From: Xanthomonas arboricola | GTDB taxonomy: Bacteria > Pseudomonadota > Gammaproteobacteria > Xanthomonadales > Xanthomonadaceae | NCBI RefSeq assembly: GCF_003353015.1 | Contig: NZ_QREM01000001.1 | Location: 534,391-577,634, forward strand | Direction of reading: 5' to 3' | DNA length: 43,244 nucleotides | Shown here: piece by piece, positions 4,510 through 43,244 of the stretch | Position numbering within the stretch: the stretch's first letter is position 1 | How the letters are laid out: each line of letters begins with the position of its first letter | Translations under genes and position numbers: made by a program | Notes under the pieces: model-generated | What the model was told of the DNA's origin: nothing | Database searches by the model: none | What the model saw: only the letters and a program-made list of their open reading frames with translations

Positions 4510-5163
4510 ATGACCACTTCTTCAAACACCCGCATGTCCGCTGCGCTGCCGTTGCGTGACGACGGCGCCCTGCGCGGTTCGGTGATGCTGGCGTTGTTCG
4601 TCCTGCTCGGCCTGGGCCTGAGCTATTCGTTGATCGCCACCGGCATCACCGGCGCCTTGTTTCCCGCGCAGGCGCATGGCTCTCTGCTGCGCGATGACGC
4701 ACGCGTGGTCGGCTCGGCCCTGGTGGCCCAGCCGTTTGCCGATGCGCGCTATTTCCAGCCACGCCCCTCGGCGGCCAAGTACGACCCGACCGCGGCGGCC
4801 GGCAGCAACCAGGCGCGCTCCAATCCCGACCTGCAGGCCCGCATCGCCGCCACGCGCGCCGAGGTGGCGGCGCGCGACGGCATCGCGCCGGAGGCAGTTC
4901 CCGGCGAATTGCTGACCCAGTCCGGCAGCGGCCTGGACCCGCACCTGAGCCCGGCCGCGGTGCAGGTGCAACTGCGCCGCGTCGCCACCGCGCGCGGCTG
5001 GCCGGAACAGCGCGTCGCCGCGCTGGTCCAGGCCGCCACCGAACGGCCACAGTTCGGCCTGCTCGGGCAGGCGCGGGTGAATGTGCTGGCACTGAACCTG
5101 GCGCTGGATCGCGCCGGGAATGGGGAGTCCGGAATCGGGAATGGGTCAAAGCCACAACGCTAG
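4510..5163 (+). CDS. kdpC: KdpC, K+-transporting ATPase subunit C
   Basis: A 217-residue protein with one N-terminal membrane helix (about residues 22-44) and a periplasmic domain, as in KdpC, which supports the KdpA-KdpB interaction. Family segments include the GSALVAQPFADARYFQPRPSA stretch, SNPDLQAR, and the DPHLSP and ARVNVLALNLALD segments near the end. The family normally stops about here. The last 16 or so residues (from about 202) are encoded by the left arm of a heptad repeat element that begins at 5113, so the C-terminus is repeat-derived. kdpD follows after 61 bp that hold the other arm. Confidence 0.96.
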   Translation: MTTSSNTRMSAALPLRDDGALRGSVMLALFVLLGLGLSYSLIATGITGALFPAQAHGSLLRDDARVVGSALVAQPFADARYFQPRPSAAKYDPTAAAGSNQARSNPDLQARIAATRAEVAARDGIAPEAVPGELLTQSGSGLDPHLSPAAVQVQLRRVATARGWPEQRVAALVQAATERPQFGLLGQARVNVLALNLALDRAGNGESGIGNGSKPQR

Positions 5164-5220
5164 ATCTGTCAGCTCGCGGTAGGCTCCACACATCCCCAAT
5201 CCCGACTCCCCAATCCCGGC
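5113..5220. repeat. Heptad inverted-arm element, kdpC-kdpD
   Basis: The left arm (about 5113-5146) starts GCCGGGAATGGGGA and continues with GGGA-type heptads. The right arm (about 5192-5220) is the reverse-complement type and ends CCCCAATCCCGGC, four bases before the kdpD start. The spacer of about 45 bp is unrelated to the spacers of the other copies. The left arm encodes the end of KdpC. The arms could form an imperfect stem-loop between kdpC and kdpD. Confidence 0.85.
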
Positions 5221-5224
5221 CTTC

Positions 5225-7885
5225 ATGATCGACGCCCGCACCCAACAAGCCGACGCGCTGATCGGCGAACTGCAGCGCGAACATGGCGGGCGTCTGACGG
5301 TCTTCCTGGGCGCCGCGCCGGGGGTGGGCAAGACCTACGCGATGTTGTCGCGCGCGCGCGAGCGCCTGCGCCAGGGCATGGACGTGGTGGCCGGAGTGGT
5401 GGAAACCCATGGCCGCAGCGAGACCGCCGCACTGCTGGATGGCCTGCCGTTGCTGGCGCGTACCCGCATCAGCTACCAGGGCCGGCAGCTGGAAGAGCTC
5501 GACCTGGACGCCTTGCTCGCGCGCAAGCCCAAGCTGGCCCTGATCGACGAGCTGGCCCACCGCAACGTGCCCGGCAGCCGGCACGAGCGGCGCTGGCAGG
5601 ACATCGTCGAACTGCTCGATGCCGGCATCGATGTCTACACCACGGTCAACATCCAGCATCTGGAAAGCCTCAACGACATCGTGCTGCGCATCACCGGGGT
5701 GCGCGTGTCCGAGACTGTGCCCGATGCGGTGTTCGACCGCCTGCGCGACATCGTGCTGGTGGATCTGCCGCCGCGCGAACTGATCGAACGCCTGCAGCAG
5801 GGCAAGGTGTATCTGCCCGAGCAGGCGACCCAGGCCTTGCAGGCGTTCTTCTCGCCCTCCAACCTCACCGCCCTGCGCGAGCTGGCGATGCAGACCGCGG
5901 CCGACCGCGTCGACAGCGACCTGCGCGACACCCAGGCCGCGCGCGGACTGCCGGGCACTGCCGCCTTGCGTCGCCGCGTGGTGGTGGCCATCGACGGGCG
6001 TGGCGGCTCGGATTATCTGGTGCGGGTGGCGCGGCGGCTGTCCGAGCGGCGCGACGCGCCGTGGACGGTGGTCACCGTGCAGACGCGCACCGTGGCCGAT
6101 GCCGCCTGGCAGCTGGAGATCGACCGCGCGTTTGCACTGACACGCCGGTTGGGTGGGGATACCGCGCTGCTGCATGGCGCCAACGTCGCACAGGCCTTGC
6201 TGGATTTCGCTGCGCAAAACGGCGTGTCCACGCTGGTGCTGGGGCGCACGCGCGAACGCCCGCTGGCGCGCATGTTCAACCGCACGCTGACCCAGCAATT
6301 GCTGCAGCGGGGCGCGCATTACGAACTGGTCATCGTCAGCTCCGCCGATGCGCGTGCACGCGCGCGCCAGCGTTGGCGCAATCCGCGCCAGTGGCTGCAG
6401 CGCTACGACCTGGCGTTCGCGGCGATTGCCGCCGCTGCAGCGGTCGCGGTGGCGTGGGTGATCCAGCGCTGGACCGACATCGACGACCTGTCGATGGTGT
6501 TCATCGTCGCGGTGGTGCTGGTGGCCTCGCGCACACGCATGGCCGCCGCGGTGATCGCCGCGCTGCTGAGTTTTGTCGCCTACAACTTCTTCTTCATCGA
6601 ACCGCGCTTCACCCTGCACATCAGCGCGCGCCAGGGCGTGGTGACGGTGTGCCTGTTCCTGATCGCCGCCCTGGTGGCCGGCCGCCTGGCCTCGCGCCTG
6701 CGCAGCCAGGTGCTGGCCCTGCGCGCCGCCAACGCGCACGCCAACGCGCTGCAGGCGCTGGCCCGCGAGCTCAGCACCGCCGCCGACCTGGGGCAGGTGC
6801 TGGAAGCCGGCCGCCGCGCGCTGGCCACGGCACTGGATGCCGAGGCCTGGTTGCGGCTGGAGCAACGCGAGAGCGATGCGCCGGCCAGCTTCGGCGCACT
6901 CGATCGCAGCGCGGCGGAGTGGACCCAGCGCCACGGGCAGCCGGCGGGCCACTTCACCGACACGCTGGCCGGCGCGCAGTGGTGGTGCCTGCCGGTGCGG
7001 CACGAACGTGGCAGCCTTGGCGTGGCCGCGTTGCGCTTTCGTCAGAGCGTGCAGCGGCCCGGCCTGGAGCAACGCCGGCTGGCCGAAGCGATGGTGGAGG
7101 ACATCGGCCAGGCCGCACTGCGTACGCGCCTGGTCGCCGATCTGGAGGGCGCGCGCGTCAGTGGCGAAACCGAGCGCCTGCGCTCGGCATTGCTGTCCTC
7201 GGTCTCGCATGACCTGCGCTCGCCGCTGGCCTCGATGATCGGCTCGGCCAGCAGCCTGGCCAGCTACGGCGATGCGATGGACGCGCACGACCGCCACAGC
7301 CTGCTGGACACCATCCAGCTCGAAGGCGAGCGGCTGGATCGCTACATCCAGAACCTGCTCGACATGACCCGGCTCGGCCACACCGGGCTGACCTTGAAGC
7401 GCGACTGGATCGGCGTGGACGAGTTGATCGGCTCGGCCACGCGGCGGCTGCAGCGCTACCAGCCGGCAGTACGGCTGCACCTGGAGCTGGCCGCCGACCT
7501 GCCGGCGATCTGGGTGCACCCTGCACTGGTGGAACAGGCGATCTTCAACGTGCTGGAGAATGCGGCGAAATTTTCGCCAGCTGGCGTGGCCGTCACCGTG
7601 CAGGCGCGGCTGCAGGCCGGCGCCCTGCAGATTGATATCGGCGACCAGGGCCCCGGCATTCCCGAGGACGAGCGCGCGCGCATCTTCGACATGTTCTACA
7701 GCGTGGAGCGTGGCGACCGCGGCCGCCATGGCACCGGGCTGGGCCTGACCATCTGCCAGGGCATGATCGGCGCGCATGGCGGCAGCGTGGAGGCGCTGGC
7801 CGGCGCCGATGGTCACGGCACCACGATCCGCATTACGCTGCCGTTGCTCGTTCCTGCCGCGCCACCTCGCCCCGATGCCGACTGA
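5225..7885 (+). CDS. kdpD: KdpD, osmosensitive K+ sensor histidine kinase
   Basis: An 886-residue sensor kinase controlling kdp expression. Order of domains: N-terminal KdpD sensor domain with Walker A GAAPGVGKT at residues 29-37; a universal-stress-protein-like domain (about 245-375); four membrane helices of the DUF4118 type (about 395-488); a GAF-like region; a HisKA domain with phosphoacceptor His662 in SVSHDLRSP; and a HATPase domain with NVLENAAKFSP, DQGPGIP and GTGLGL motifs. Size matches the E. coli protein (894). The ATG at 5225 lies four bases after the repeat arm and has no clear Shine-Dalgarno site. kdpE overlaps its 3' end by 11 bp. Confidence 0.97.
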   Translation: MIDARTQQADALIGELQREHGGRLTVFLGAAPGVGKTYAMLSRARERLRQGMDVVAGVVETHGRSETAALLDGLPLLARTRISYQGRQLEELDLDALLARKPKLALIDELAHRNVPGSRHERRWQDIVELLDAGIDVYTTVNIQHLESLNDIVLRITGVRVSETVPDAVFDRLRDIVLVDLPPRELIERLQQGKVYLPEQATQALQAFFSPSNLTALRELAMQTAADRVDSDLRDTQAARGLPGTAALRRRVVVAIDGRGGSDYLVRVARRLSERRDAPWTVVTVQTRTVADAAWQLEIDRAFALTRRLGGDTALLHGANVAQALLDFAAQNGVSTLVLGRTRERPLARMFNRTLTQQLLQRGAHYELVIVSSADARARARQRWRNPRQWLQRYDLAFAAIAAAAAVAVAWVIQRWTDIDDLSMVFIVAVVLVASRTRMAAAVIAALLSFVAYNFFFIEPRFTLHISARQGVVTVCLFLIAALVAGRLASRLRSQVLALRAANAHANALQALARELSTAADLGQVLEAGRRALATALDAEAWLRLEQRESDAPASFGALDRSAAEWTQRHGQPAGHFTDTLAGAQWWCLPVRHERGSLGVAALRFRQSVQRPGLEQRRLAEAMVEDIGQAALRTRLVADLEGARVSGETERLRSALLSSVSHDLRSPLASMIGSASSLASYGDAMDAHDRHSLLDTIQLEGERLDRYIQNLLDMTRLGHTGLTLKRDWIGVDELIGSATRRLQRYQPAVRLHLELAADLPAIWVHPALVEQAIFNVLENAAKFSPAGVAVTVQARLQAGALQIDIGDQGPGIPEDERARIFDMFYSVERGDRGRHGTGLGLTICQGMIGAHGGSVEALAGADGHGTTIRITLPLLVPAAPPRPDAD

Positions 7886-8591
7886 CCCCACTGCCATCCC
7901 GCCTGCCCGCGTGCTGATCGTCGACGACGAGCCGCAGATCCGCCGCTTTCTCGACATCAGCCTGCGCGCACAGGGGTATCGCGTGCTGCAGGCCGGCACC
8001 GGCGAAGAAGGTCTTGCGCTGCTGGCCGGGCAGGGCGCCGAACTGGTGGTGCTGGACATCGGCCTGCCCGACCGCGACGGCCACGAGGTGCTGCGCGAGA
8101 TCCGCCAGTGGTCCAGCGTGCCGGTGATCATGCTCACCGTGCGCGCCGGCGAAACCGAAAAGGTCGCCGCGCTCGATGCCGGCGCCAACGACTACGTCAC
8201 CAAGCCGTTCGGCGTACAGGAACTGATGGCGCGCATCCGCGCGCTGCTGCGCCAGGCCGGCGCCGCCAGCACGGTGGAGGAGAGCGTGTTCGACGACGGC
8301 CGCCTGCATATCCATCTGGGCCTGCGCGAGGTCACCCTCGATGGCGAGGCGGTGCCCTTGAGTCGCAAGGAATACGCCCTGCTCGCGCTGCTGTTCAAGC
8401 ACGCCGGCCGCGTGGTCACCCAGCCGCAGCTGCTGCGCGAGGTGTGGGGCCCCACCCATGAAGACGACACCCATTACCTGCGCATCCTGGTCGGCAAGCT
8501 ACGCCAGAAACTGCACGACGATGCCGCCGCCCCGCATTACATCGTCACCGAACCGGGCGTGGGGCTGCGCTTCATCGGGGTGACGCGCTGA
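7875..8591 (+). CDS. kdpE: KdpE, response regulator of kdp
   Basis: A 238-residue OmpR/PhoB-family regulator. The receiver domain (about residues 12-125) has the acidic pair DDE, the phosphoacceptor Asp61 in LDIGLPDRDG, LTVR for the conserved Thr, and Lys in TKPFG. The C-terminal winged helix follows (about 140-235; ends YIVTEPGVGLRFI). The ATG at 7875 was chosen over a longer opening at 7776: it overlaps the kdpD stop by 11 bp and gives the family N-terminus. Phosphorylated by KdpD, it should activate kdpFABC; candidate sites lie at 275-327. It converges with the next gene, leaving only 10 bp. Confidence 0.97.
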   Translation: MPTDPTAIPPARVLIVDDEPQIRRFLDISLRAQGYRVLQAGTGEEGLALLAGQGAELVVLDIGLPDRDGHEVLREIRQWSSVPVIMLTVRAGETEKVAALDAGANDYVTKPFGVQELMARIRALLRQAGAASTVEESVFDDGRLHIHLGLREVTLDGEAVPLSRKEYALLALLFKHAGRVVTQPQLLREVWGPTHEDDTHYLRILVGKLRQKLHDDAAAPHYIVTEPGVGLRFIGVTR

Positions 8592-8601
8592 GGCGGTAGC
8601 G

Positions 8602-9990
8602 TCACTCGAGCGGTGGCAGCACCTTGCCCGGATTCAGGATCCCGTCCGGATCCAGCGCGGCCTTGATCGCACGCATCGCCGCCAGCGTCGGTGCGCTGAA
8701 GGCCTGGGCCATGAAATCGCGCTTGGCCACGCCGATGCCGTGCTCGCCGGAGAGCGTGCCTTCCAGCGCCAGCACCAGCGTAAACAGGCGCGGCAATGCG
8801 GCATGCGCGCGTGCGTCCTCGTCGGCATCGGCCGGGTCGTACATGATGTTGACGTGCAGGTTGCCATTGCCGGCATGGCCGAAAGCCACAATCGGCAGCG
8901 CGAACTCCGCAGCCAATGCCTCCACGCCGGCCACCAGGTCGGGAATGCGCGACACCGGCACCACCACGTCTTCGTTGATCTTGCCGGGCTTGATCGTGCG
9001 CAGCGCCGGCGACAACGCGCGGCGTGCCGCCCACAGCTTGTCGCGCGCGCTGCCATCGGCGGCCACGTCCAGGCTCACCACGCCCTCGCCATCGGCGGCA
9101 TCGTGCAAGGCCTGCAAGGCATAGGGCAGGGTGTCGTGATCGCCATCGGCTTCGATCAGCAGCATCGCGCCGGCCTCGGGCACGTCGCTGCCATTGCGGC
9201 GCAGTAACGCGATCGCACTGGCGTCCATGAATTCCAGCATCGTCGGCGTGGTCGGTTGTGCCATGATGCGCGACACCGCCGCCGCGGCGCTGGCCGCATC
9301 GCGATACAGCGCGCGCAAACCGGCTTGTGCGATCGCACGCGGGGTCAGCTTCAAGGTCGCCTCGACGATGATCGCCAGGGTGCCTTCGCTGCCGATCAAA
9401 AGATGTGTGAGGTCGTAGCCGGTGGAGTTTTTGGTATACGCACCACCGCAGCGGATCACCTCGCCGGTGCCGGTCACTGCGACCAGGCCGAGCACGTTGT
9501 CGCGGGTGGTGCCGTACTTCACCGCGCGCGGGCCGCCGGCATTGGTGGCCAGGTTGCCGCCGACGCTGCAGATGTCCGCGCTGGACGGATCCGGCGGCCA
9601 GAACAGGCCGTGCGGCTGCAGGGCCTGCTGCAACTCGCCATTGAGCAGGCCAGGTTGCACCACGGCGCAGCGGTCCTGCGGACGCAGCGCAAGGATGCGG
9701 TTCATGCGCGCCATCGACACCACCACGCCGCCGGCAAACGGCACTGCCGCACCGGTGGTGCCGGTGCCCGCGCCACGCGCCACGATCGGCACGCCATGCG
9801 CGCGACAGGCCTGCACGATCGCCACCACCTCCGCGGTATCGCGCGGCAGGGCAACGGCGGCGGGCAAGGCGCAGCGGCGCGAATCGTCCTCGCCATGGCG
9901 ACGCCGCGCGTCGGCGCCGGTGAGCCAGCCATCGGGGCCAAGCCGCGCGGCCAGCAAGTCGGCCAGGGCAGTGGGGAGTACATCGGTCAT
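8602..9990 (-). CDS. GlcD/Dld-type FAD-linked oxidoreductase
   Basis: A 462-residue flavoenzyme of the glycolate oxidase subunit D / D-lactate dehydrogenase type. The N-terminal FAD-binding PCMH domain (about residues 35-215) has the GAGTGTTGAAVP loop and the DICSVGGNLATNAGGPRAVK segment. The C-terminal FAD-oxidase domain carries GHAGNGNLHVNIMYDP, the GEHGIG motif and the terminal DPDGILNPGKVLPP. It should oxidise a 2-hydroxy acid (D-lactate, glycolate or 2-hydroxyglutarate; the sequence does not say which). The start at 9990 gives MTDVLPTAL and overlaps the upstream stop by four bases (ATGA), so it is coupled to the preceding gene. A longer frame to 10176 is only the shadow of that gene. Confidence 0.92.
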   Translation of the reverse strand: MTDVLPTALADLLAARLGPDGWLTGADARRRHGEDDSRRCALPAAVALPRDTAEVVAIVQACRAHGVPIVARGAGTGTTGAAVPFAGGVVVSMARMNRILALRPQDRCAVVQPGLLNGELQQALQPHGLFWPPDPSSADICSVGGNLATNAGGPRAVKYGTTRDNVLGLVAVTGTGEVIRCGGAYTKNSTGYDLTHLLIGSEGTLAIIVEATLKLTPRAIAQAGLRALYRDAASAAAAVSRIMAQPTTPTMLEFMDASAIALLRRNGSDVPEAGAMLLIEADGDHDTLPYALQALHDAADGEGVVSLDVAADGSARDKLWAARRALSPALRTIKPGKINEDVVVPVSRIPDLVAGVEALAAEFALPIVAFGHAGNGNLHVNIMYDPADADEDARAHAALPRLFTLVLALEGTLSGEHGIGVAKRDFMAQAFSAPTLAAMRAIKAALDPDGILNPGKVLPPLE

Positions 9991-10526: not shown

Positions 10527-10542
10527 CGCGCGTGGGTCGTTG

Positions 10543-10911: not shown

Positions 10912-10915
10912 GGCG

Positions 10916-13710: not shown

Positions 13711-14150
13711 GCGGAGTCGGCCAGACAGTCGCGTCACTCGCAAGGGTGCCGAGGAAAGTCCGGGCTCCATAGGGCAAGGTGCCAGGTAACGCCTGGGCGG
13801 CGCGAGCCGACGGAAAGTGCAACAGAGAGATACCGCCGAACGGTCCTGCCACCCCATTGCCGCCTTCTGAACGAGGCGGGCTCGACTTGACGGCGAAGCC
13901 GGGCAAGTGCCTTCCGGAGACGGCAATGGGGTGGCAGGGCGCGTGGTAAGGGTGAAATGGTGCGGTAAGAGCGCACCGCGAGTCCGGTAACGGACCGGCA
14001 CGGCAAACCCCACCTGGAGCAAGACCAAATAGGGATCCATTGGCGTGGCCCGCGCTGGATCCGGGTAGGTTGCTTGAGCGCTGCGGTGACGTAGCGCCTA
14101 GACGAATGACTGTCCACGACAGAACCCGGCTTACCGGCCGGCTCCGCCAC
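13711..14150 (+). ncRNA. rnpB: RNase P RNA (M1 RNA, bacterial type A)
   Basis: The catalytic RNA that matures tRNA 5' ends. Conserved blocks are all present: the P4-forming GAGGAAAGTCCGGGCTC near 13751, ACAGAGAGATACCGCC near 13822, AATGGTGCGGTAAGAGCGC near 13957, GGTAACGG-ACCGGCACGGCAAACCCC near 13985, the GAGCAAGACCAAATAGG region near 14016, and CACGACAGAACCCGGCTTA near 14116. The 5' end GCGGAGTCGGCC pairs with the 3' end GGCCGGCTCCGC to form helix P1, which sets the boundaries to within a few bases. The location between rsmI and mraZ is conserved in related gammaproteobacteria. Confidence 0.97.
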
Positions 14151-16599: not shown

Positions 16600-17657
16600 G
16601 CCGGGGTGCCCGGATGCGCGGTGAAGCGCAGCCCGGTCACCCGGTGTCGCAGCCACCGGCGGCCCATGTGCCGGTGCTGTACACGCAGGTTCTGGACGGC
16701 CTGCAGGTGATCGAAAACGGAACCTATCTCGATGGCACCTTCGGGCGTGGCGGACACGCCCGTGGCGTGCTGCAACACCTTGGCCCGGGAGGTCGACTGC
16801 TGGTGATGGACAAGGACCCCGACGCGATTGCCGTGGCCGAACAGGCGTTCGGTGGCGATGCGCGCGTGTCCATCCATCGCGGCAGCTTTGCCGGCCTCGG
16901 CCAGGTGGTCGCTGCGGCAAGCGTCGACGGCATCCTGCTGGATCTGGGCGTGTCCTCGCCGCAGCTGGACGTGGCCGGGCGCGGTTTCAGTTTCGGCAAG
17001 GACGGCCCGCTGGACATGCGCATGGACCCGGACGCCGGCCAGAGCGCGGCCGAGTGGCTGGCGCAGGCCAGCGAGCGCGAGATCGCCGACGTGTTGTGGA
17101 CCTATGGCGAAGAGCGCCAGAGCCGCCGCATCGCGCGCGCCATCGTGGCGCGTCGCGCCGAACAGCCGCTGCTGCGCACCGCGCAACTGGCCGAGCTGAT
17201 CGCCTCGGTGATGCCGCGCGGCGACAGCAAGACTCATCCGGCCACGCGCAGCTTCCAGGCGATCCGCATCTACATCAACCGCGAGCTGGACGATCTGGAA
17301 GCCGGCCTGGATGCCGCCCTGGGCGCGCTCAAGCCCGGCGGCCGCCTGGCGGTGATCAGCTTCCACTCGCTGGAGGACCGCATCGTCAAGCAGTTCATGG
17401 CCCGCTACGCCAAGGCCCCGCCGAGCAACCGCCGCCTGCCCGAAGCCCAGCCCTTCGTGCCGACGCTGCAGCTGATCAGCGGCGCCATCAAGGCCGACGA
17501 CGCCGAACTGAGCGTCAACCCGCGCGCCCGCAGCGCGGTATTGCGGGTGGCCGAGAAGCTGGGATTCGGGAGTAGGGATTCGGGATTGGAAAAGCGCTCT
17601 GAGCGAATCTCGAATCCCGAATTCCCAATCCCGGCGTCTCAAGGAGACGCCCAATGA
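16596..17657 (+). CDS. rsmH: RsmH (MraW), 16S rRNA N4-methyltransferase (C1402)
   Basis: A 353-residue S-adenosylmethionine-dependent enzyme methylating N4 of C1402 in 16S rRNA. Motifs: [23 protein letters not shown] (cofactor loop), [32 protein letters not shown] and [13 protein letters not shown]. The GTG at 16596 overlaps the mraZ stop (GTGA); an ATG at 16614 with GGGG upstream is an alternative giving 347 residues. The family core ends near residue 322. The last 30 or so residues are encoded by a heptad repeat element (17558-17635), yet the frame stays open so that the stop overlaps the ftsL ATG (ATGA). Confidence 0.95.
17558..17635. repeat. Heptad inverted-arm element in the 3' end of rsmH
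   Basis: The left arm GCTGGGATTCGGGAGTAGGG and following heptads (17558-17588) and the right arm (about 17611-17635, ending AATTCCCAATCCCGGC) flank a spacer of about 22 bp. This is the most compact copy and should fold into a long stem-loop. It lies wholly inside the rsmH reading frame and is 78 bp by my boundaries, a multiple of three. Confidence 0.85.
17633..17651 (+). promoter_or_regulatory. Hairpin covering the ftsL ribosome site
   Basis: GGCGTCTC (17633-17640), AAG loop and GAGACGCC (17644-17651) form a perfect 8-bp stem. The AAGGAG ribosome site of ftsL (17641-17646) lies in the loop and 3' arm, and the ATG follows two bases later. Folding would limit initiation at ftsL unless ribosomes finishing rsmH melt it, so it fits translational coupling. 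Confidence 0.6.
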
Positions 17658-25287: not shown

Positions 25288-26579
25288 GCGCTCATGCGGA
25301 TTCCTCGCAAACGCCGGCACATCATGCCGGGATCCAACCGGTGATGATTCTCGCTGGAGGCACCGGCGGGCACATCTTCCCCGGTCTGGCCGTGGCCAGG
25401 GTGCTGCGCGCGCGTGGCGTGCCGGTGACCTGGCTGGGTGCCGACGGCGCGATGGAAACCCGGCTGGTGCCGCAGCACGACATCCAGCTCGACACGCTGG
25501 CCATCAGCGGCCTGCGCGGCAAGGGCCTGGTGAAACTGCTGGGTGCACCGGTGCGGGTGATGCGCGCAGTGCGCGCCGCCGGCTTCGTGCTGCGCAAGCG
25601 CCAGCCGCGCGCGGTGATCAGTTTCGGCGGCTTCGCGGCCGGGCCGGGTGGCCTGGCCGCGCGGCTGCTCGGCGTGCCGCTGCTGGTGCACGAACAGAAC
25701 CGCGCGCCCGGCATGACCAACAAGGTGCTGTCGCGGTTTGCGCGTCGCGTGCTGACCGGTTTCCCGGGCAGCTTCGCCGGCGAGGAGGCGGTGGGCAATC
25801 CGGTGCGCGCGGAAATCGCCGCGCTTCCCGCGCCGGCCACGCGCCTGGTCGGCCGTGGCGGTGCGGTGCGTGTGCTGGTGCTCGGTGGCAGCCAGGGCGC
25901 GCGCGCATTGAATCAGGCCGTGCCGGCCGCACTGGCCGCGCTCGGCCACCCGGATGTGGACGTGCGCCACCAGTGCGGCGAAAAGCTGCGCGCCGAAGCC
26001 GAGGCCGCTTACGCGCAGGCGGGCGTCAACGCCAGCGTCGAACCGTTCATCGCCGACATGGCCGCCGCTTATGCCTGGGCCGACCTGGTCGTGTGCCGCG
26101 CCGGCGCTTCGACGCTGGCCGAACTGTGCGCCGCCGGCATCGGCAGTGTGCTGGTGCCCTTCGCCGCCGCGGTCGATGACCACCAGACCCGCAATGCCGA
26201 CTACCTGGTCGGCGCCGACGCCGCCGTGCTGCTCAAGCAGGACGACACCCTGGCCGTGCGCCTGCAGCAGGTCTTGCAGACCCTGCTCGCCGACCCCGCA
26301 CGCCGCCTGTCGATGGCCCAGGCCGCCCGCACCCTGGCCAAACCGGATGCCGCCGAACGCATCGCCGACATCATTCTGCAGGAAGCCGGGAGTGGGGATG
26401 GCCGGCCTCCGGCCGTCAAAGAGCGAGCGGGATTGGGGATTTGTAAAGAGCAACAGCACAAGCAGGAAAGCATGCAGAAATCCGTTAATGGTCAATTTTC
26501 GGCGCGATCGATCGCCGCCGTTGCCAATCTCCAATCCCTAATCTCCAATCCCGGCACCTCCGCCGGAGGTGCCCAGTGA
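25284..26579 (+). CDS. murG: MurG, lipid II synthase
   Basis: A 431-residue GT-B glycosyltransferase that adds GlcNAc to lipid I. Motifs: [52 protein letters not shown], and [15 protein letters not shown] for UDP-GlcNAc. The protein is about 75 residues longer than E. coli MurG. Homology stops near residue 368 ([10 protein letters not shown]). The last 60 or so residues come from a heptad repeat element and its spacer, ending [14 protein letters not shown]. The frame stays open to a TGA overlapping the murC GTG (GTGA). Confidence 0.95.
26385..26555. repeat. Heptad inverted-arm element in the 3' end of murG
   Basis: The left part starts GCCGGGAGTGGGGATGG (26385) with a further GGGATTGGGGATT at about 26430. 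The right arm (about 26523-26555) reads CCAATCTCCAATCCCTAATC and ends CCAATCCCGGC. The spacer is about 85 bp and includes a local palindrome, GGCCGGCCTCCGGCCG-like, near 26400. The element lies inside the murG frame and measures 171 bp by my boundaries, a multiple of three. Confidence 0.8.
26553..26573 (+). promoter_or_regulatory. Hairpin sequestering the murC ribosome site
   Basis: GGCACCTCC (26553-26561), loop GCC and GGAGGTGCC (26565-26573) form a perfect 9-bp stem. The murC ribosome site GGAGG (26565-26569) is fully paired. The GTG start is two bases after the stem. Initiation should need the stem to be opened by ribosomes completing murG, whose stop overlaps the start. Confidence 0.65.
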
Positions 26580-28963: not shown

Positions 28964-29115
28964 GCCGGGATCGGGGATTCGGGATTCGGGATTGGCATAC
29001 GGCGACGCCGCGCGCGCCGTTGCCGTTGCTGTGGCCAATTCCCAATCCCCAATCTCCAATCCCGCGAGCGCAGCTCGCGCCGTTGCGAATCCCCAATCCC
29101 CAATGCCGAATCCCG
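28964..29115. repeat. Heptad inverted-arm element, ddlB-ftsQ
   Basis: The left arm (28964-28995) starts GCCGGGATCGGGGATTC with regular 7-bp units. A first right arm (about 29034-29065) and a second (about 29085-29115) carry the complementary AATCCCC units. A perfect CGCGAGC-GCA-GCTCGCG hairpin (29063-29079) lies between the two right arms. GCATAC at 28995 is repeated inverted as GTATGC at 29115. This copy begins two bases after the ddlB stop and ends just before the ftsQ ribosome site. Confidence 0.85.
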
Positions 29116-29131: not shown

Positions 29132-29968
29132 ATGAACGCCACCCTGCGCATCCTGGCGTGGTTGCTCGCGGTGGCGCTGGTCGCGTTGCCGGTGGTGGCC
29201 GTGCTCAATGGCTGGGTCGGCGCCGAGCGCTGGCCGTTGGCGCGGCTGCGGGTGTCGGGCGACTTCAAGCGGGTGCCGGCCGAGCAGTTGCGTGCGGTGG
29301 TGTTGCCGTATGCACACGCGGGCTTTTTCGCGGTGAAGTTGCAGGACGCGCAGGACGCCATTGCGCGCCTGCCATGGGTGGAAAGTGCGCAGGTGCGCAA
29401 GCGTTGGCCGGACGTGCTGGAAGTGCACGTCACCGAGCACAAGCCGTTCGCGCGCTGGGGCACCGACCGCATGTTGTCCGAGCAGGGTCGGCTGTTCCGC
29501 ACCCCGCCGTTGTTGAAGGATTTCAAGCTGCCGCAACTCGGTGGCCCGGACAGCAAGACCCAGGACGTGGTGGCGCTCTACAACGAGGCGCGTGCGCTGT
29601 TCGCGCCGACCGGGCTGGATGTGGAACGCCTGGAAATGGACGCACGCGGCAGCTGGTCGCTGGGCCTGAGCAACGGCGTGCAGATCGTGATCGGCCGCGA
29701 CGATGCCCGCGCCCGCCTGCAACGCTTCGCCCGCGTGCTGCCGCAACTGGCCGACCCGCAACGCCCGATCGCCCGCGCCGACCTGCGCTACACCAACGGC
29801 TTCACGGTCCAACGGAATATGGAAAACGCGGCGCCCGAGACCAAGAAAAAACCTCCGCCGGCCACGCCCGCCGCACACCACACGGTCGTCCTGGAACTGC
29901 CTCGCAGCCGCGCACCGTTTTTCTCCAATCCCGAATCCCAAATCCCGAATCCCGGCTTTAAGACATGA
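29132..29968 (+). CDS. ftsQ: FtsQ, divisome scaffold protein
   Basis: A 278-residue bitopic membrane protein: short cytoplasmic N-terminus, one helix (about residues 6-28), a POTRA domain (WPLARLRVSGDFKRVPAEQL to about residue 105) and the FtsQ/DivIB domain. The ATG at 29132 with GGAG eight bases upstream was preferred to one at 29117, which lies within the repeat. The last 14 or so residues (SNPESQIPNPGFKT) are encoded by a heptad repeat arm at 29923-29956. The stop overlaps the ftsA ATG (ATGA). Confidence 0.94.
   Translation: MNATLRILAWLLAVALVALPVVAVLNGWVGAERWPLARLRVSGDFKRVPAEQLRAVVLPYAHAGFFAVKLQDAQDAIARLPWVESAQVRKRWPDVLEVHVTEHKPFARWGTDRMLSEQGRLFRTPPLLKDFKLPQLGGPDSKTQDVVALYNEARALFAPTGLDVERLEMDARGSWSLGLSNGVQIVIGRDDARARLQRFARVLPQLADPQRPIARADLRYTNGFTVQRNMENAAPETKKKPPPATPAAHHTVVLELPRSRAPFFSNPESQIPNPGFKT
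29923..29956. repeat. Single heptad arm in the 3' end of ftsQ
   Basis: Only the right-hand orientation is present: CTCCAATCCCGAATCCC, AAATCCCGAATCCCGGC. It ends AATCCCGGC like the complete copies, nine bases before the ftsA ATG. No left arm is visible upstream in ftsQ, so this is either a half-element or a decayed one. Confidence 0.8.
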
Positions 29969-31203: not shown

Positions 31204-31476
31204 GCCAGGATTCGGGATTCGGGATTTGGGATTGGCAAGAGCGAAGGAAAAGCAGGGCGGCGGCGAAGATAAGTGGAGAGCGGCAAGCGGGTAGGCGGTA
31301 AACTTTTTTGCAGGCATTGCGTCGAGGAGTAGGTGCGGTGAGTCGTAGAGCGCAACAGCGCATCCATGACCCAGGCACACGAATCCCGACTTTCAAACAA
31401 CAACACTCGCCGTGATGCGGAGTGGGCAGGGACCCTCGCTTTTGCGACTCCCCAATCCCTACTCCCCAATCCCGGC
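31204..31476. repeat. Separated heptad arms in the ftsA-ftsZ spacer
   Basis: A left arm GCCAGGATTCGGGATTCGGG with further heptads (31204-31236) begins three bases after the ftsA stop. A right arm (about 31446-31476) ends CCCCAATCCCGGC, 16 bases before the ftsZ ATG. About 210 bp lie between them, the largest spacing in the window. The inner segment is less GC-rich, has no plausible gene, and could hold an ftsZ promoter that I cannot pinpoint. Confidence 0.75.
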
Positions 31477-31492: not shown

Positions 31493-32737
31493 ATGGCACA
31501 TTTCGAACTGATTGAAAAAATGGCTCCCAACGCGGTCATCAAGGTCGTTGGCGTGGGCGGCGGCGGCGGTAACGCGGTCGCGCACATGGTCAACACCAAT
31601 GTCGATGGCGTGGAGTTCATCACCGCCAACACCGACTCGCAGGCGATCAAGAACTGCGGCGCCAAGCTGCAGCTGCAGCTCGGCACCAATGTCACCAAGG
31701 GCCTGGGCGCCGGCGCCAATCCGGAAGTGGGCCGCCAGGCCGCGCTGGAAGATCGCGAGCGCATCATGGACGCGCTGCAGGGCGCGGACATGGTGTTCAT
31801 CACCGCCGGCATGGGCGGCGGCACCGGCACCGGCGCGGCGCCAGTCGTTGCACAGCTGGCCAAGGAAATGGGCATCCTGACCGTGGCCGTGGTCACCAAG
31901 CCGTTCCCGTTCGAAGGCCGTCGCCGCATGCAGGTCGCGCTCAAGGGCATCGAGGAACTGAGCCAGCATTGCGACTCGCTGATCACCATCCCCAATGAAA
32001 AGCTGATCACCGTGCTCGGCCGCAACGCCACCATGATCCAGGCCTTCCGCGCTGCCAACGACGTGCTGCAGGGCGCCGTGCAGGGCATCGCCGACCTGAT
32101 CGTGCGTCCGGGCCTGATCAACGTCGACTTCGCCGACGTGCGCACCGTGATGTCGGAAATGGGCCTGGCCATGATGGGCACCGGGTCGGCACGCGGCGAC
32201 GATCGTGCGCAGGCCGCTGCCGAAGCCGCCATCCAGAACCCGCTGCTGGACGACGTCAACCTGGCCGGTGCCAACGGCATCCTGGTCAACATCACTGCCG
32301 GCCCGGACTTCACCATGTCCGAGTTCGACGAAATCGGCCGCACCATCGAGGCGTTCGCCTCGGAAGATGCCACCGTGGTCGTCGGCACCGTGCTTGACCC
32401 GGACATGCAGGACGAAGTGCGCGTCACCGTGGTGGCCACTGGCCTGAACCGTGCGGTTGCCCGCCAGACCCAGCGTCCGGACCAGCGCGCGCCGATCAAG
32501 TTGGTGCGCAACGCCACCACCGGCCAGCCGGAGTTCGGCGATTTCGACACCAGCGGCGGCGATGCGGTGTCCAAGGCCGTCGGCGGCAGCATGGGCCTGG
32601 GCCTGCGTCGTCCGAGCAGCGACTCGGTCGGCAGCAGCAGCGGTAGCAACAACGGCGGCGGTTCCGCTGCGCCGGCTGCAGACCTGCCCAACGACTACCT
32701 GGATATCCCGGCGTTCCTGCGCCGCCAGGCCGACTGA
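31493..32737 (+). CDS. ftsZ: FtsZ, tubulin-like division GTPase
   Basis: A 414-residue GTPase that polymerises into the Z-ring at midcell. GTP-binding features: [20 protein letters not shown], the tubulin signature [10 protein letters not shown], and [11 protein letters not shown] with the synergy-loop Asp region. A flexible Ser/Gly/Asn-rich linker (about residues 340-395) precedes the C-terminal peptide [14 protein letters not shown], which binds FtsA and ZipA. The ATG at 31493 has GAGGA eight bases upstream and gives the family N-terminus. A strong terminator follows 80 bp later, closing the dcw cluster before lpxC. Confidence 0.98.
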
Positions 32738-32779
32738 GGAGCGTCGGCCGCGTCGCCACGGTGGCGCGGTCCGTCCCGC

Positions 32780-32797
32780 CCCGGGGTTCGCCCCGGG
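32780..32797 (+). repeat. Hairpin after ftsZ
   Basis: CCCGGGG (32780-32786), TTCG, CCCCGGG (32791-32797) form a perfect 7-bp GC stem with a tetraloop but no T-run. It may pause polymerase or protect the ftsZ transcript end. Confidence 0.5.
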
Positions 32798-32816
32798 ATG
32801 CTGTGCCATGTCCTTT

Positions 32817-32847
32817 CTGCCGGATCGGCCACGATCCGGCAGCTTTT
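32817..32847 (+). terminator. Intrinsic terminator of the dcw cluster
   Basis: CTGCCGGATC (32817-32826) and GATCCGGCAG (32833-32842) make a perfect 10-bp stem with a 6-base loop, followed by CTTTT. It lies 80 bp after the ftsZ stop and before the lpxC promoter. Confidence 0.85.
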
Positions 32848-32891
32848 GCAGTGGCGTGACCCGGGGATTACAGTTCCCGTCACGCGCGACT

Positions 32892-32909
32892 TGTTAAAAT
32901 TCGGATAAT
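32892..32909 (+). promoter_or_regulatory. lpxC promoter, extended -10 type
   Basis: TGTTAAAAT (32892-32900) is an extended -10 element (TGn plus TAAAAT). A second -10-like GATAAT lies at 32904-32909. No good -35 is visible, which suits an extended -10 promoter. The leader to lpxC would be about 60 nucleotides. Confidence 0.5.
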
Positions 32910-32968
32910 CTCCACGGATTAGACAGCCGGTTCAGCGTCTGTCTGCATTGTTCATCCAGACTTCGCAT

Positions 32969-33880
32969 ATGACCCAGCAACGCACTCTCAAGAACACCAT
33001 TCGCGCCACCGGCGTCGGCCTGCACAGTGGCGACAAGGTGTACATGACGCTACGACCGGCCCCGGTCGATCATGGCGTGGTGTTCCGGCGTGTGGACCTG
33101 GAGCCGATCGTCGAAGTCCCCGCCGATGCCGAGCTGGTCACCGAGACCACGCTGTGTACCGGCCTGACCTGCAATGGCGCCAAGATCCAGACCGTCGAGC
33201 ACCTGATGTCGGCGCTGGCCGGCCTGGGTGTGGACAACGTCATCGTCGAACTGTCCTCGGCCGAGTTGCCGATCATGGACGGCTCGTCCGGCCCGTTCGT
33301 GTTCCTGCTGCAGTCGGCAGGCATCGTCGAGCAGAACAAGGCCAAGCGCTTCATCCGCATCAAGCAGACGGTGGAAGTGCGCGAGGGCGACAAGGTTGCG
33401 CGCTTCGAGCCGTACGACGGCTACAAGCTTGGCTTCACCATCGAATTCAATCACCCGATGATCCCGGCCAAGCAGTCGCGCCAGGAAATCGAGTTCTCCA
33501 CCTCGGCCTACGTCAAGGAAATCTCGCGCGCCCGCACCTTCGGTTTCATGCGTGATCTCGAGTACATGCGCGAGCGCAATCTGGGCCTGGGCGGGTCGAT
33601 GGACAATGCCATCGTGCTGGACGAGTTCCGCGTGCTCAACGAGGACGGCCTGCGCTACACCAACGAATTCGTGCGGCACAAGATCCTCGACGCCATCGGC
33701 GACCTGTATCTGGCCGGCGGCGCCATCCTGGGCGCCTACGAAGGCTTCAAATCCGGCCACGCGCTCAACAACAAGCTGGTGCGCGCGCTGCTGGCGGATC
33801 AGGCCGCCTGGGAATGGGTCAGCTTTCCCGAGGGCAGCGTGCAGCCACCGGTCACCTACGCCAGCCCTGTCTACGCTTGA
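32969..33880 (+). CDS. lpxC: LpxC, UDP-3-O-acyl-GlcNAc deacetylase
   Basis: A 303-residue zinc enzyme catalysing the committed step of lipid A synthesis. Zinc ligands His78 (in [15 protein letters not shown]), His237 and Asp241 (in [12 protein letters not shown]) are present, as is the SRARTFGF segment. The ATG at 32969 gives the family N-terminus [15 protein letters not shown]; an in-frame TTG at 32948 is unlikely. No clear Shine-Dalgarno precedes it. Its place after ftsZ is conserved in gammaproteobacteria, but here it has its own terminator-insulated promoter. Confidence 0.97.
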
Positions 33881-35550: not shown

Positions 35551-35614
35551 TTACGGCTGCCGGGTCCTGGGGACCGGCGTCGGTCAAACCGTTCCTTTTC
35601 AACCGGTTTCTTCA

Positions 35615-38353
<2,739 letters not shown>

Positions 38354-38376
38354 GCTGAGTTGAATTGCGTTGATTC

Positions 38377-38403
38377 AAAGCCCCGCCTTGTGCGGGGTTT
38401 TTT
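38377..38403 (+). terminator. Intrinsic terminator of secA
   Basis: AAAGCCCCGC and GCGGGGTTTT form a stem around a CTTGT loop, followed by a run of six T residues (38398-38403). This is a textbook terminator 24 bp after the secA stop. Confidence 0.92.
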
Positions 38404-38706: not shown

Positions 38707-41700
38707 ATGAACAGGATCTATCGCTTGGTGCTTAACCGCGCCACCGGTTCGATGCAGGTTGCGTCCGAACTCGCCACATCACACGGTTCGTCCACTCACG
38801 TGACCGGAGGACGCATCTGCCATCGGTCGTCGTTGAACACGGCAATGCTGATCGCACTGGGCCTAGTTGCGGCACCCTCTGCATTTGCTGCTGTGGTCGA
38901 TTTCAACAACGATGACACCATCACCAACTCTGTGGTGTATGACGATGGTTTCCGCATCGGCCCGAATGGCGTCGTGACTGTCGATGTCGCTGGTGGTGCG
39001 GTGGTGACATCCAGCGATGACGTCTCTCTGGGCAGTACGACGACCGGTAACGGTACCCTGCGTCTGACCGGGCCTGGCGCAAGTCTGGCGATCAATAGCG
39101 GTTTTGCGCAGCTATACGTCGGTGATGCGGGGATTGGTAGCCTCATTTTACAGGGCGGGAGCAGTGCCACAGCAGATGGTCTGATGCTTGTCGGCAATCA
39201 GCAAGGCAGCACTGGCAATGTGCTGGTCTCTGGTGCCGGTTCGGCTCTCACGGCCCGCAACATGCGTGTCGGTCGCAGCGGTACAGGAACCTTGGATATT
39301 ACAGATGGCGGCACGGTCACCACGACTCGACCGTATGCTGTTGTCAATCCCTACGGCATGTCCATCGGGAACGACACCACCGGCGTGGGTACGGTGAATG
39401 TCAATAATTCTGGCGTGCTGACCACCACCGATAATTTCCTGGTCATTGGTAACGATGGCAAGGGCACGCTGAATGTCGGCAGCGGCGGCAAGGTCAACGC
39501 CGACCGTGGCGTGCTCCTCGGAGCAGACATCAATCTCAGTGACGAGCTCACCAGCAATGGCACCTTGAACGTGACCGACGGCGGTGAGCTCAATACCTTG
39601 CAGCTGACCATCGGGGTTCGAAGTGATTCCGTCGGCGCAGTGACCGTGAGCGGTACCGGCAGAATCAATGCCGACGCCGTATGGGTCGGCTCCAATGGCG
39701 ACGGAAGCCTGACCGTTTCGGGCGGCGCCATCGTCAAAGCGGCGACCGAATTGCGTGCCGAGCGTCCGACCGGTATTACCGACGATTTTGGTCAGGTTGG
39801 CCGTATCGCGGTCAGCGGCACGGGCTCGGCGATCGAAGCGCCTCGACTGGATGTCAGCAATGAGCTTCTGGTCGAGAGCGGTGCGGCACTGCGTTCGACC
39901 ACTGCAGACGTGAGTGATTCGTTCGGTAACACGCGCACCGCCGCCACTCTGACCGGCGCTGGGTCTACGTGGGCGAATAGTGGCGCGATGCGTGTCTTGA
40001 CCAAGCTGGACGTACTCGACGGCGCAGTGCTCAATACGGATACCTTGTCGATTTCCGGCGGACTTAACTCCTCGACCCTGTCGCCCCGGATCGAGCGCGA
40101 TCAGGTTCGCGTCAGTGGCGCTGGATCGGCGATCGTTGCCGCCAACGGCGTGACTGTTGGAGGCACTGTGTTTGAACCCTTTGGCGTGCTCAGCGCCAGC
40201 AGCGGTGGCCGCATCGATGGCGGTAGCGGGATGACGCTGGGCACTGCAGGTTATCTGGCTTTGGGTGGGGGCATGGACCAGTGGTCGGTCGCCGACATTG
40301 CGCCCGCCTGGAGCGCTGCCGAAGCGCCAGGGCAATTATCTGCATCGCCGATCTTGATGCAGGTGAACTCCGGTGGCTTGGTGTTCAACCACACTGGCGA
40401 TGCCATTTTGTCGAACAACATCAGCAGCGTACCTAACGGAAATTGGTGGGTCAGCGGCCAACTGTTACAGCTATCCGGCAACACGCGCCTGGATGGCAAT
40501 CTGACTGCATTCGGTGGGGAAATCAACGTCGCCGGCGGCACCCTGGAGATTAACTCTGACCTCTACACTGGCCAGGGCTATACGGATCCCGGCCAGGCAT
40601 CTGTTCAGGAGATCCGGGTCGCCGGTGGCACACTGGTGTTCAATGGCACGTCCGGTTTCCAGCAGCAGATCACCCTGGGTAACAACACCGTCGAGACCGT
40701 CCGTAGCTCGATTGCCGCAGTGGCCGGCGAGGGCATCCTGGCCGGTAATGCCAGGCTCGGAGATACCCTGCTCGGCAATGGCGGTACGTTGTCACCGGGC
40801 CGCAATGGGGTCGGCAAGATCAGCATCGATGGCGATCTGTACTTTGCTGCAAACAGCATGATTGGCGGCGCGATTACCGGCACTTCGTTCTACGACGTCG
40901 ACGTGCTCGGCAATGGCCAGAGCGACCAGATTGCCGTGAGCCGCGTTGCTTACCTGGGCCGTACCTCAGGCTTGAGCAATACTGCCGATGCTGCGCTGCG
41001 CGTGACTGCGCTGGACCCGTCTGTCAGTTATCAGAATGGTCAGACATATACGATCCTGGAGGCGGCTGGGGGGGTGCAAGGCCGCTTCGACCAGGTGATT
41101 TCGCGCTCTGCCTTTCTCGACCCGAGCGTTGTCTATACCGCCAACCAGGTGCAGTTGACCCTGGCGGTCAAGGACACCGCTCCGCCCGTTACTCCTGCTC
41201 CGCCTGTGGATCCGGGTACGCCGGTCACCCCGGTCACCCCGGTCGATCCAGTCACGCCGGTTACACCTGCGCCACCGATCGCCCCTGTCACCCCTGTCAC
41301 CCCGGTTGCCCCCACTGTCCCCATTACCCCACCTTTGGTGTTCGGTACGGTCGCCATCAGCGGCAACCAGCGCGCTACCGCTGCGGCGTTGGATACGCTG
41401 CAGCAGTCAGGCACCGCGCTGGCGCTCTACAACGGCTTGTTGATAATGGATGCCGACACTGCCCGTGCGGCGTTCGATGAGCTCTCCGGCGAAGTCCACG
41501 CCAGCAATCGTGCACTGCTACTGGAGGATCGCTTCCTACGCGAAGGGATCAGCCAGCACCTGCGCCAGACCTCAAGCATTGCCGAAGACGGGGGCGCATC
41601 GGGTTGGATCGCCGGCAGTGGCGCGTCCAATCGGCAGGATGGTGATGGCTCCGCTGCCCGTGGTCGCCAGAACCGCGACGGCCTGATGGCCGGTGTGGAC

Positions 41701-42423
41701 TGGTCGTTCGGCGAGCGTTGGACAGTCGGGCTTGCCGCCGGTTCGGAGTCGCTGCGTCAGCAGATCCAGGCGCGTAACGCGTCGTCGGATGTCGATGCCG
41801 TGCATGCCGGGGTATACGGTCGCTATCGCGGCGAGGCTGCATGGATCAATGGCGGAGCTAGCTATGCGGACTACCAGGTGGACACCGAGCGTACCGTTGG
41901 TCTGGGTACCGGTATTGCCCAGCGCTTGGGCGGTCGTTATGACGCCGACGCGGTGTCGGCTTTTGTCGAGGGCGGCTGGGACTTCGAGCTGGGTGCGCTC
42001 ACGCTTACCCCATACGTCGCAGCGGCTTACACGCGGTTGTCCACTGACGCGGGAGTAGAGGCTGGCGGTAGTGCGGCGCTGGCGATCGATGCCAGCAAGG
42101 ATGAAGTGTGGACGTCCACCGCTGGCGTGCGAGCCTCTTGGGATATCAGTGGCGGTTCGCAGGATGGTGCACGTCTAGAAGCTGGCCTGGCCTGGCAAAA
42201 TGCGGCCGGGGAACTACGCGCCGATTCCCGGCAACAATTCGCGGCCGGCAGCAGCGCATTCACCGTTGGCGGCGTACCGTTGGCGCGGAATGTCGGCATC
42301 GCCGAGCTCGGTATCTCCCTCAATCCCTCCGCCAACAGCCGCCTGTCGCTGGTCGGGCAGGGACGTGCCGGCGATGGTCAGCGTGAGATCGGCGCGCAGT
42401 TGAACTGGAGGGTCGCGTTCTAA
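38707..42423 (+). CDS. Type Va autotransporter, large adhesin-like passenger
   Basis: A 1238-residue secreted protein. The N-terminus [21 protein letters not shown] is an extended signal peptide region. A hydrophobic core follows and likely cleavage is after residue 61-62 (SAFA-AVVDF). The passenger (about 63-820) consists of Gly/Thr/Asn/Ser-rich beta-helix repeats such as [11 protein letters not shown] and [12 protein letters not shown] Pro/Val/Thr repeat linker spans about 823-875. The C-terminal 12-strand barrel (about 965-1238) ends in Phe (LNWRVAF), as needed for Bam assembly. No protease or lipase active site is evident, so an adhesin role is likely. The ATG at 38707 has GGAG four bases before it. 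Codon use is more AT-rich than in the neighbours. Confidence 0.93.
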
Positions 42424-42450
42424 GCGACGTGGGTCTGCCTTGAACCAACA

Positions 42451-42478
42451 TCGAAGGGCTCCGCAAGGAGCCCTTCGA
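42451..42478 (+). terminator. Terminator of the autotransporter gene
   Basis: TCGAAGGGCTCC (42451-42462), GCAA loop and GGAGCCCTTCGA (42467-42478) make a perfect 12-bp stem with a GNRA tetraloop, 27 bp after the stop and followed by CATTTCATTT. It is symmetrical enough to work in both directions. Confidence 0.85.
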
Positions 42479-42768
42479 CATTTCATTTGCGGGACGCCGC
42501 ACGCACTTCCCGATCAAGATTCGATGGTCCGACGTGACGTATCCCGATAGTTCCAAAGAAGGCGTCCGGCCTACCCTAGGTCTTTCGACTGTGGAACGCC
42601 TTCAGAGACCGGGTCTCTGGCCGGAGCCGAAACTCCGATTTTCGGATTATGGCGCCCTTCGCAGCGTTCTACGCCTTGTTGTCCTCGCTACGGTGATCGT
42701 CTGTGCGGGAATACCGGACACCTCGCCTGGGCGTATGCTCACCGCCATATCCTGCGTGGAGTGCGGTC
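42479..42768. other. Spacer before the VOC gene, no gene seen
   Basis: This stretch has mixed base composition and no supported gene; an open frame from 42534 runs into the VOC gene in another frame and looks like a shadow. It holds two small inverted repeats: CAGAGAC-CGG-GTCTCTG (42603-42619) and CCGAAA/TTTCGG near 42627-42646. It could be the remains of older inserted DNA at the edge of the autotransporter. Confidence 0.5.
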
Positions 42769-43137
42769 ATGGCACTGCTGTCCAGCCAGCAACTGAAGGT
42801 GTTCGTGCCTGCGCGCGACTACGCGCTGTCGCAGCGGTTCTACCGCGCGCTGGGCTTCGTGCAGGAGGACGAGGTCGGCAATGTCACCTGCTTCCGGCAT
42901 GGCACGCATTGCGCGTTCCTGCTGCAGGATTTCTACCAGCGCGAGCTGGCCGAAAATCTCATGCTGCATCTGTGGGTGGACGATGCCGATGCCTGGTGGC
43001 AGCACATGCATGACATGGGGCTGGACGAGCAGTTCGGCGTGAGCTTCAGCGCGCCGGAAGACCGGCCATGGGGCGCACGCGATTTCACCCTGCACGATCC
43101 CAGCGGCGTACTCTGGCGCATCGGGCATCCGCTGTAG
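42769..43137 (+). CDS. VOC-fold (glyoxalase/bleomycin-resistance-like) protein
   Basis: A 122-residue single-domain protein of the vicinal oxygen chelate superfamily. The fold shows as two beta-alpha-beta-beta-beta halves: LKVFVPARDYALSQRFYRALGF, HCAFLLQDFY, MLHLWVDDADAWWQHM, and RDFTLHDPSGVLWRIGHP. The final DPSGVLWRI is the usual signature. Substrate cannot be told; small members include glyoxalases, antibiotic-binding proteins and uncharacterised dimers. The ATG at 42769 has GGAG about nine bases upstream, and a longer frame to 42703 lacks homology. A heptad repeat array starts right after the stop. Confidence 0.88.
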   Translation: MALLSSQQLKVFVPARDYALSQRFYRALGFVQEDEVGNVTCFRHGTHCAFLLQDFYQRELAENLMLHLWVDDADAWWQHMHDMGLDEQFGVSFSAPEDRPWGARDFTLHDPSGVLWRIGHPL

Positions 43138-43140
43138 GCG

Positions 43141-43244
43141 TGAATCGGGAATCGGGAATGGTTGAAGCACGCACATGCCCGCCTTGGCAATTCCCGATTC
43201 CCCAATCCCCAATCCCGAATCCCGAATCCCGAATCCCGAATCCC
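43141..43244. repeat. Heptad inverted-arm element at the window end
   Basis: The left arm (43141-43161) is made of GAATCGG/GAATGG units. After about 28 bp the right arm (about 43190 onward) runs AATTCCCGATTCCCCAATCC and then at least four identical AATCCCG heptads to the end of the window. This is the longest uninterrupted 7-bp tandem here, and it is cut off by the window edge. Confidence 0.85.

Follow-up and report, generated by a model that had tools for sequence, protein, structure and literature searches.

The heptad repeats scattered through the 43,244-nucleotide stretch of the Xanthomonas arboricola genome analysed here (the window; contig NZ_QREM01000001.1, positions 534,391 to 577,634) are real and their basic form is known; what our analysis adds, if it holds, is that they are two-arm palindromes written in several sequence dialects, for which pairing between the arms fits better than a quadruplex. 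In the excerpts of Rehm et al. 2015 (PMC4692102), Xanthomonas repeats are described as GGGNATC G-quadruplex sequences, with 186 and 183 arrays in two genomes, 70 inverted pairs in Xcc and 75 in Xac, and 83% of the Xcc repeats at the same place in Xac. According to these excerpts, the arrays lie after stop codons on the coding strand and before start codons on the other strand, four units are preferred, oligonucleotides form quadruplexes in vitro as judged by CD spectra, and no role in gene regulation was identified for the repeats, which are classed as simple sequence repeats that Xanthomonas has and other gammaproteobacteria lack. Genus, heptads, inverted pairs, stop/start placement and four-unit preference mark these as the same repeats as ours; the first-pass annotation, which knew of no assigned function, was right on that point, but the repeat itself had already been published. 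GGGATTC also turns up in papers on VNTR typing of Xanthomonas. Compared with the excerpted account of Rehm et al., our elements further display an arm of ~38 bp with common flanks and a mild heptad order, dialects common to both arms, a patchy occurrence across the order, one dialect that lacks G-runs, and in-frame read-through. Among the papers that a search of the open-licence literature turned up, none dealt with fixed arms, dialects or a form lacking G-runs.

The six best MurC matches of the window are all named Xanthomonas, at 97-99% identity. Heptad arrays were present at 7/7 places reported in the window, and a single family with arms alike across loci is supported. A 3-heptad scan of the window returned 14 arrays at 16/21 matches, 13 at 17 and 11 at 18, against 0-1, 0 and 0 in five first-order Markov sequences of equal length. 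Six copies lie at the kdpC-kdpD, rsmH-ftsL, murG-murC, ddlB-ftsQ, ftsQ-ftsA and ftsA-ftsZ junctions (murG and ftsL being named by their position), and one is cut by the window edge. Their arms are as follows.

5113..5143, plus strand: left arm at kdpC-kdpD, GGGAAT type, inside the kdpC frame, whose stop at 5163 is in the spacer
5190..5220, minus strand: right arm at kdpC-kdpD, GGGATT type, ending 4 nt upstream of the kdpD ATG
17558..17588, plus strand: left arm at rsmH-ftsL; the rsmH frame covers the entire element
17605..17635, minus strand: right arm at rsmH-ftsL
26385..26442, plus strand: left arm at murG-murC, split by a nested hairpin (26402-26428) and within the extended murG frame
26525..26555, minus strand: right arm at murG-murC
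28964..28994, plus strand: left arm at ddlB-ftsQ, starting one nt past the ddlB stop
29036..29063, minus strand: inner right arm at ddlB-ftsQ
29087..29114, minus strand: outer right arm at ddlB-ftsQ
29926..29956, minus strand: right arm without a left partner at ftsQ-ftsA, coding for the FtsQ end
31204..31234, plus strand: left arm at ftsA-ftsZ, starting three nt past the ftsA stop
31446..31476, minus strand: right arm at ftsA-ftsZ, directly upstream of the ftsZ ribosome site
43140..43160, plus strand: left arm of the cut-off last copy
43189..43244, minus strand: right arm of the last copy, an expanded array extending beyond the window

The common design first proposed for these loci stands in part. 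The left arms start with GCCGGG at 5113, 26385 and 28964, but with GCTGGG at 17558 and GCCAGG at 31204. The left arm at 26385 is interrupted, 28964-29115 has two right arms, and 29923-29956 has a right arm only. Among relatives, both arms pass the array score in 20/33 distinct Xanthomonas sequences of the ftsQ-ftsA junction, and in L022 and L023 a nested hairpin or a repetition of the arm start breaks up the left arm at ddlB-ftsQ. The last copy had been set apart as an exception in its right-arm end; it does end GAATCCCGGC past the window edge. Just there, beyond 43189-43244 (L209), a repeated stretch and an N stand in the assembly, which may have been joined across the expanded array.

Placement between stop and start codons was supported, with the amendment that the kdpC, rsmH, murG and ftsQ arms sit inside the upstream frame. 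In 6/7 window copies, 4 to 20 nt separate the right arm from the next gene's likely start (with ATGAAC taken as that of ftsQ). The rsmH and murG frames run through the element to stops that still overlap the next start, and the elements add tails to RsmH, MurG and FtsQ. Length classes keep the frame at all read-through junctions (rsmH-ftsL 6/6, the extracted sequences being checked by eye; murG-murC 6/6; ftsQ-ftsA 4/4), and the ftsA-ftsZ lengths vary in frame (10, 7 and 7 distinct sequences by remainder). At ddlB-ftsQ, 33/34 distinct sequences share one remainder modulo 3 though the ddlB stop precedes the element, and this constancy may come from hexamer repeats in the loop. Two perfect small hairpins follow right arms directly, one at 17633-17651 holding the ftsL ribosome site (GGCGTCTCAAGGAGACGCC) and one at 26553-26573 holding the murC ribosome site (GGCACCTCCGCCGGAGGTGCC); by eye, the former or something similar is kept in most of the 24 distinct rsmH-ftsL sequences. 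As read from the sequence, no T run stands behind the right arm in any of the first six copies of the window, and intrinsic terminators were rejected on this ground. At gathering score, no Rfam family matched the heptad elements in the window, the matches being RNase P RNA at 13713-14149 and the sRNA Xoo8 at 32724-33041, downstream of ftsZ.

We then describe the element in the window's own genome. The pattern GCCGGGATT, followed by 1-10 bases and GGGATT, matched 58 times in the assembly (some matches overlapping) and 0 times in the reversed control. A survey of 843 kb (two 400-kb stretches plus the window), which by design misses arrays of fewer than three heptads, yielded 50 arrays of at least three heptads, compared with 1 in the reversed sequence. 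Neighbouring arrays less than 400 bp apart formed 17 inward pairs, 0 outward pairs and 5 same-direction pairs in these 843 kb, in agreement with the proposed preference for inverted pairing, and the loop between facing arms measures 16 to about 210 nt. Four heptads make up the arm in 36/50 cases, five in 7, three in 6 and eight in 1. The arm thus described is a ~38-bp unit with GCC outside, four heptads, and GYAANRGC inside; the heptad consensus, outermost first, is GGGATTG, GGGAGTC (or GGGATTC), GGGATTG, GGGATTC, and tandem GGGANTN heptads, GGGAATC included, are found in the arrays. The order of heptads is mildly preferred (mean pairwise identity 0.812 versus 0.799 for within-arm shuffles, maximum 0.807, beyond 2000/2000). 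The spacers of different elements are unrelated (14 spacers from the 843 kb, 1/182 comparisons above z 5), although divergence among old copies could explain this; the earlier statement that arms are conserved while spacers vary is borne out across the loci of a single genome. Because arms mostly have four heptads, common flanks and a mild order around unrelated spacers, the arm rather than a free tandem repeat looks like the unit. In a crude, ORF-based assignment of 16/17 pairs, which misplaced ddlB-ftsQ, the flanking genes were codirectional in 12, convergent in 2 and divergent in 2. Elsewhere in this genome (C12:178090-178258), a local duplication has left two near-identical right arms that share their flank and lie 134 bp from each other; there is an N nearby.

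To follow the arms between species, six junctions were collected from up to 33/35 genomes of the genus and six named Xanthomonas records (with possible overlap), giving 168 distinct sequences whose heptads are mostly of type GGGATT, GGGAAT or GGGACC. After 38/168 sequences with weak or short arms were dropped, left and right arms agreed in dialect in 114/130; shuffling the right arms within each junction gave 64 on average and 83 at most. Agreement within genomes was 88/97 for arms of the same element versus 229/308 for arms of different elements, and shuffling right arms within each of 21 genomes (omitting L009, L217, L219 and loci with fewer than two scored elements) gave 80/87 observed versus 67.5 (P = 0.0001). 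Raw arm identity shuffled within genomes was borderline (P = 0.051). In the own genome, paired arms were not more alike than arms of other elements (0.850 versus 0.862, P = 0.93, and P = 0.98 when the arms were anchored by their outer ends; both for 16/17 pairs). A shared consensus could by itself produce the complementarity in this genome. On midpoint-rooted, unsupported trees of the flanking genes, for which recombination between species is likely, 39/52 inferred dialect changes involved both arms; of the 13 one-arm changes 7 fell at kdpC-kdpD, a junction where the two arms often differ in dialect. The mosaic make-up of some left arms (L098, L102, L115) suggests that recombination may move alleles, so that independent rewritings would number fewer than 39, and many of the joint changes may be transfers of whole alleles.

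Between these arms, the ftsA-ftsZ spacers are homologous across the two main dialects in 4/5 planned comparisons (z 9.2-16.9; the fifth not computable). The statement about conserved arms and varying spacers can thus be reversed between species at one locus, as here, where the spacer is homologous while the arms differ. Cross-dialect spacer homology above z 5 was found in 4/19 comparisons elsewhere (kdpC 2/6, ddlB 1/5, murG 1/5, rsmH 0/3). We also considered whether the arms at ftsA-ftsZ bracket native intergenic DNA; among 21 relatives, some with arms, one Stenotrophomonas segment (L017, z 8.0) matches a native-looking spacer and L027 gives a weak match (z 4.7). All remaining matches at z of at least 4 (L029, L030, L032, L033) involve heptad arrays or very short stretches, and the idea was set aside. 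One dialect per genome was rejected, as 12/21 genomes are mixed, some through a single element. The same mixture bears on the proposal, among those first offered for the elements, that the arms are binding sites for a protein. A nucleoid or recombination factor reading DNA arrays of four heptads would be in keeping with the preferred unit number and the common outer and inner flanks, but several dialects within one genome weaken the case for one sequence-specific protein, and the arms abut gene ends; we regard this reading as very improbable.

A further dialect bears on the choice between quadruplex and hairpin. Three exact GTGATTS units occur in 37/397 genomes of the order, and the reversed pattern in 0. 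Of 19 GTGATT loci, a first reading gave 10 with inward pairs, 1 with two left arrays and a right, 3 with a left arm only, 3 with a right arm only and 2 not called. Under a stricter reading, 9/19 have inward arms with at least two GTG units in each arm and no arm with four GGG runs, counted over the arm plus 10 nt; two further loci fail it, one having a GGG-type right arm and one being doubtful. One of the nine (L295) carries GGG-rich 8-bp repeats between two left arrays. Several GTGATT loci keep the outer GCC and the inner GCARAAGC-like flank. With patterns for GGGATT and GGGAAT that allow one mismatch, genome G371 has the GTGATT dialect and no match to either G-run pattern, and genome G369 has 72 GTGATT matches beside 12 GGGATT matches (reversed control 4) and no GGGAAT match. 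By the genetic code, one strand of tandem GTGATTC contains a TGA stop, unlike the GGG dialects, and therefore read-through of the rsmH or murG type would not be possible in every frame there.

These loci bear directly on the published reading, in which the four G-runs of each arm form four-stranded DNA or RNA. That reading draws on the CD spectra and four-unit preference in the excerpts of PMC4692102, and in our data the own-genome arms carry G-runs that allow a quadruplex, with GGG among their most constant parts and kept in the GGGACC dialect. A quadruplex, however, has no need of a dialect shared between left and right arms, and 9/19 GTGATT loci keep inward arms, none with four GGG runs. 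Judged from these sequences, four G-runs would not be the common property of the family; arm pairing can be. A quadruplex could still act in Xanthomonas; as the explanation of the element, we consider it improbable. The predicted RNA folds are consistent with pairing, with z -3.05 to -6.34 for five of the seven window copies (ddlB-ftsQ up to the inner right arm only) and -9.24 for a guaB-guaA element, and 0/200 shuffles as good; a segment that does not cover its element (L175:17629-17740, z 0.51) was left out. It is possible, though in our estimate rather doubtful, that both arms are rewritten together (GGGATT, GGGAAT, GGGACC, GTGATT) with no change in the number of units, the flanks, the pairing or the position between two genes, either through copying across the spacer or through a selected RNA clamp joining a stop to the next start.

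Across the order, GGGATT arrays were detected in 103/397 genomes and GGGAAT arrays in 117/397, including all 15 sampled from the window's genus, its own genome among them, with an uneven distribution within other genera. The reversed controls were not all zero (six genomes with 1-4 matches each in the GGGATT scan; two genomes, with 1 and 4, in the GGGAAT scan). At the four dcw junctions compared, no heptad arms were found in four named Stenotrophomonas loci (one junction being unreadable in one of them) or in most Pseudoxanthomonas and Lysobacter loci, nor at those readable in a Xanthomonas massiliensis record (L024; ddlB-ftsQ unreadable). Arms do occur at some dcw junctions of Pseudoxanthomonas suwonensis J47, Pseudoxanthomonas sp. 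J35, Luteimonas salinisoli and Lysobacter sp. Root690, and a degenerate right-arm-like sequence lies upstream of ftsZ in L029 and L031. In 20 other-genus genomes picked for few GGGATT arrays, some rich in other dialects (reversed control none), an array precedes ychF, recognised by eye, in 5/20 (L119-L148). By eye, arrays in other genera also recur around dnaK/dnaJ, in 2 genomes, and upstream of a lolC-like gene, again in 2. Within the genus, folD-guaB is polymorphic, with the element in 12/30 genomes, absent from 17/30 and not assignable in 1/30; the two alleles differ by replacement of about 65 bp, not by clean insertion.

Such a distribution invites the view that the element is a non-autonomous, MITE- or REPIN-like mobile palindrome with no host role, whose arms are its ends and whose sites are low-harm insertions. 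The dispersed copies share common ends and pair inward, that is, they have the terminal inverted repeats of a MITE, their occurrence in the order is patchy, and the folD-guaB alleles show presence and absence. Insertion near gene ends would also be tolerated, because no frame of a GGGATTS or GGGAATS heptad contains a stop codon (from the genetic code). Against this, the spacers are unrelated in the own genome, and the folD-guaB element replaces about 65 bp instead of being cleanly inserted; no target-site duplication was found, as these alleles replace each other and the empty dcw sites are too diverged. Y1-type (RAYT-like, PF01797) transposase genes are present in 31/35 genomes of the genus, but arrays lie near only 1/20 RAYT-type loci (stretches of about 2.4 to 3.3 kb), for which reason RAYT was rejected as the mover; among the Y1-type transposases examined, no mover was found. 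One window element had no match in the phage collection and matched two plasmid records, both Xanthomonas. A record filed as a plasmid (NZ_CP010410.1, Xanthomonas sacchari, 508,653 bp) has four places similar to a window element. The suggestion of a mobile palindrome thus keeps its presence/absence alleles and lacks a target duplication and a mover, and mobility with no host role seems to us unlikely. REP, BIME and REPIN sequences are interspersed, high in copy number and arranged in inverted pairs, and the heptad elements resemble them in all three respects; they differ from REP/BIME/REPIN with RAYT in that each arm comprises four heptads rather than one short palindrome, and in their near absence from RAYT-type loci.

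Among the options of the first-pass annotation (mobile palindromes, RNA stability elements, protein binding sites) we favour, with qualification, action at the RNA level. We propose that this is an old, dispersed palindromic repeat of the order Lysobacterales whose transcript hairpin would bring a stop codon and the next ribosome site together, a reading that we hold tentatively, at somewhat below an even chance. Where a left arm begins just past a stop and a right arm ends shortly before a ribosome site, a long hairpin would form in the transcript, its foot joining these two sites. The pairing would then work at the RNA level. Its most likely role would be to mark a site that governs processing or stability, on the lines proposed for NEMIS and ERIC; alternatively, a terminated ribosome might pass on to the next start. 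The arms would have been spread by some mover and homogenised by slippage, hairpin-templated copying or conversion. Several points count against the hairpin: translating ribosomes would melt it in rsmH and murG, the own-genome paired arms are no more alike than random ones, and 10/19 GTGATT loci are without a clear two-arm form. The borderline raw arm identity, the mixed arms of kdpC-kdpD, possible allele transfer and the scarce cross-dialect spacer homology outside ftsA-ftsZ weigh on the same side.

Precedents exist for parts of this proposal. In the excerpts of PMC2229807, the Correia/NEMIS repeats of Neisseria form a stem-loop proposed to be cut by RNase III, and ERIC sequences are co-transcribed and linked to mRNA stability. 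The heptad elements are like Correia/NEMIS in being short palindromic repeats, NEMIS being transcribed with their neighbours, and like ERIC and the Rickettsia palindromic elements (RPE) in being read in frame within genes (PMC2229807, same excerpts). They are unlike NEMIS, for which these excerpts give defined sizes from filled and empty sites, in that the spacers here bear no relation to one another and clean empty sites were not encountered, and unlike ERIC and RPE, which as described there have no heptad arms or dialects.

The repeat sits inside essential operons, the division cluster included. If a quadruplex is not the property that is kept, quadruplex-based experiments would be aimed at the wrong structure, and the dialects provide a natural test of quadruplex versus hairpin. 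Arrays of the GGGATTC type also feature in schemes for strain typing, so their mode of change matters there.
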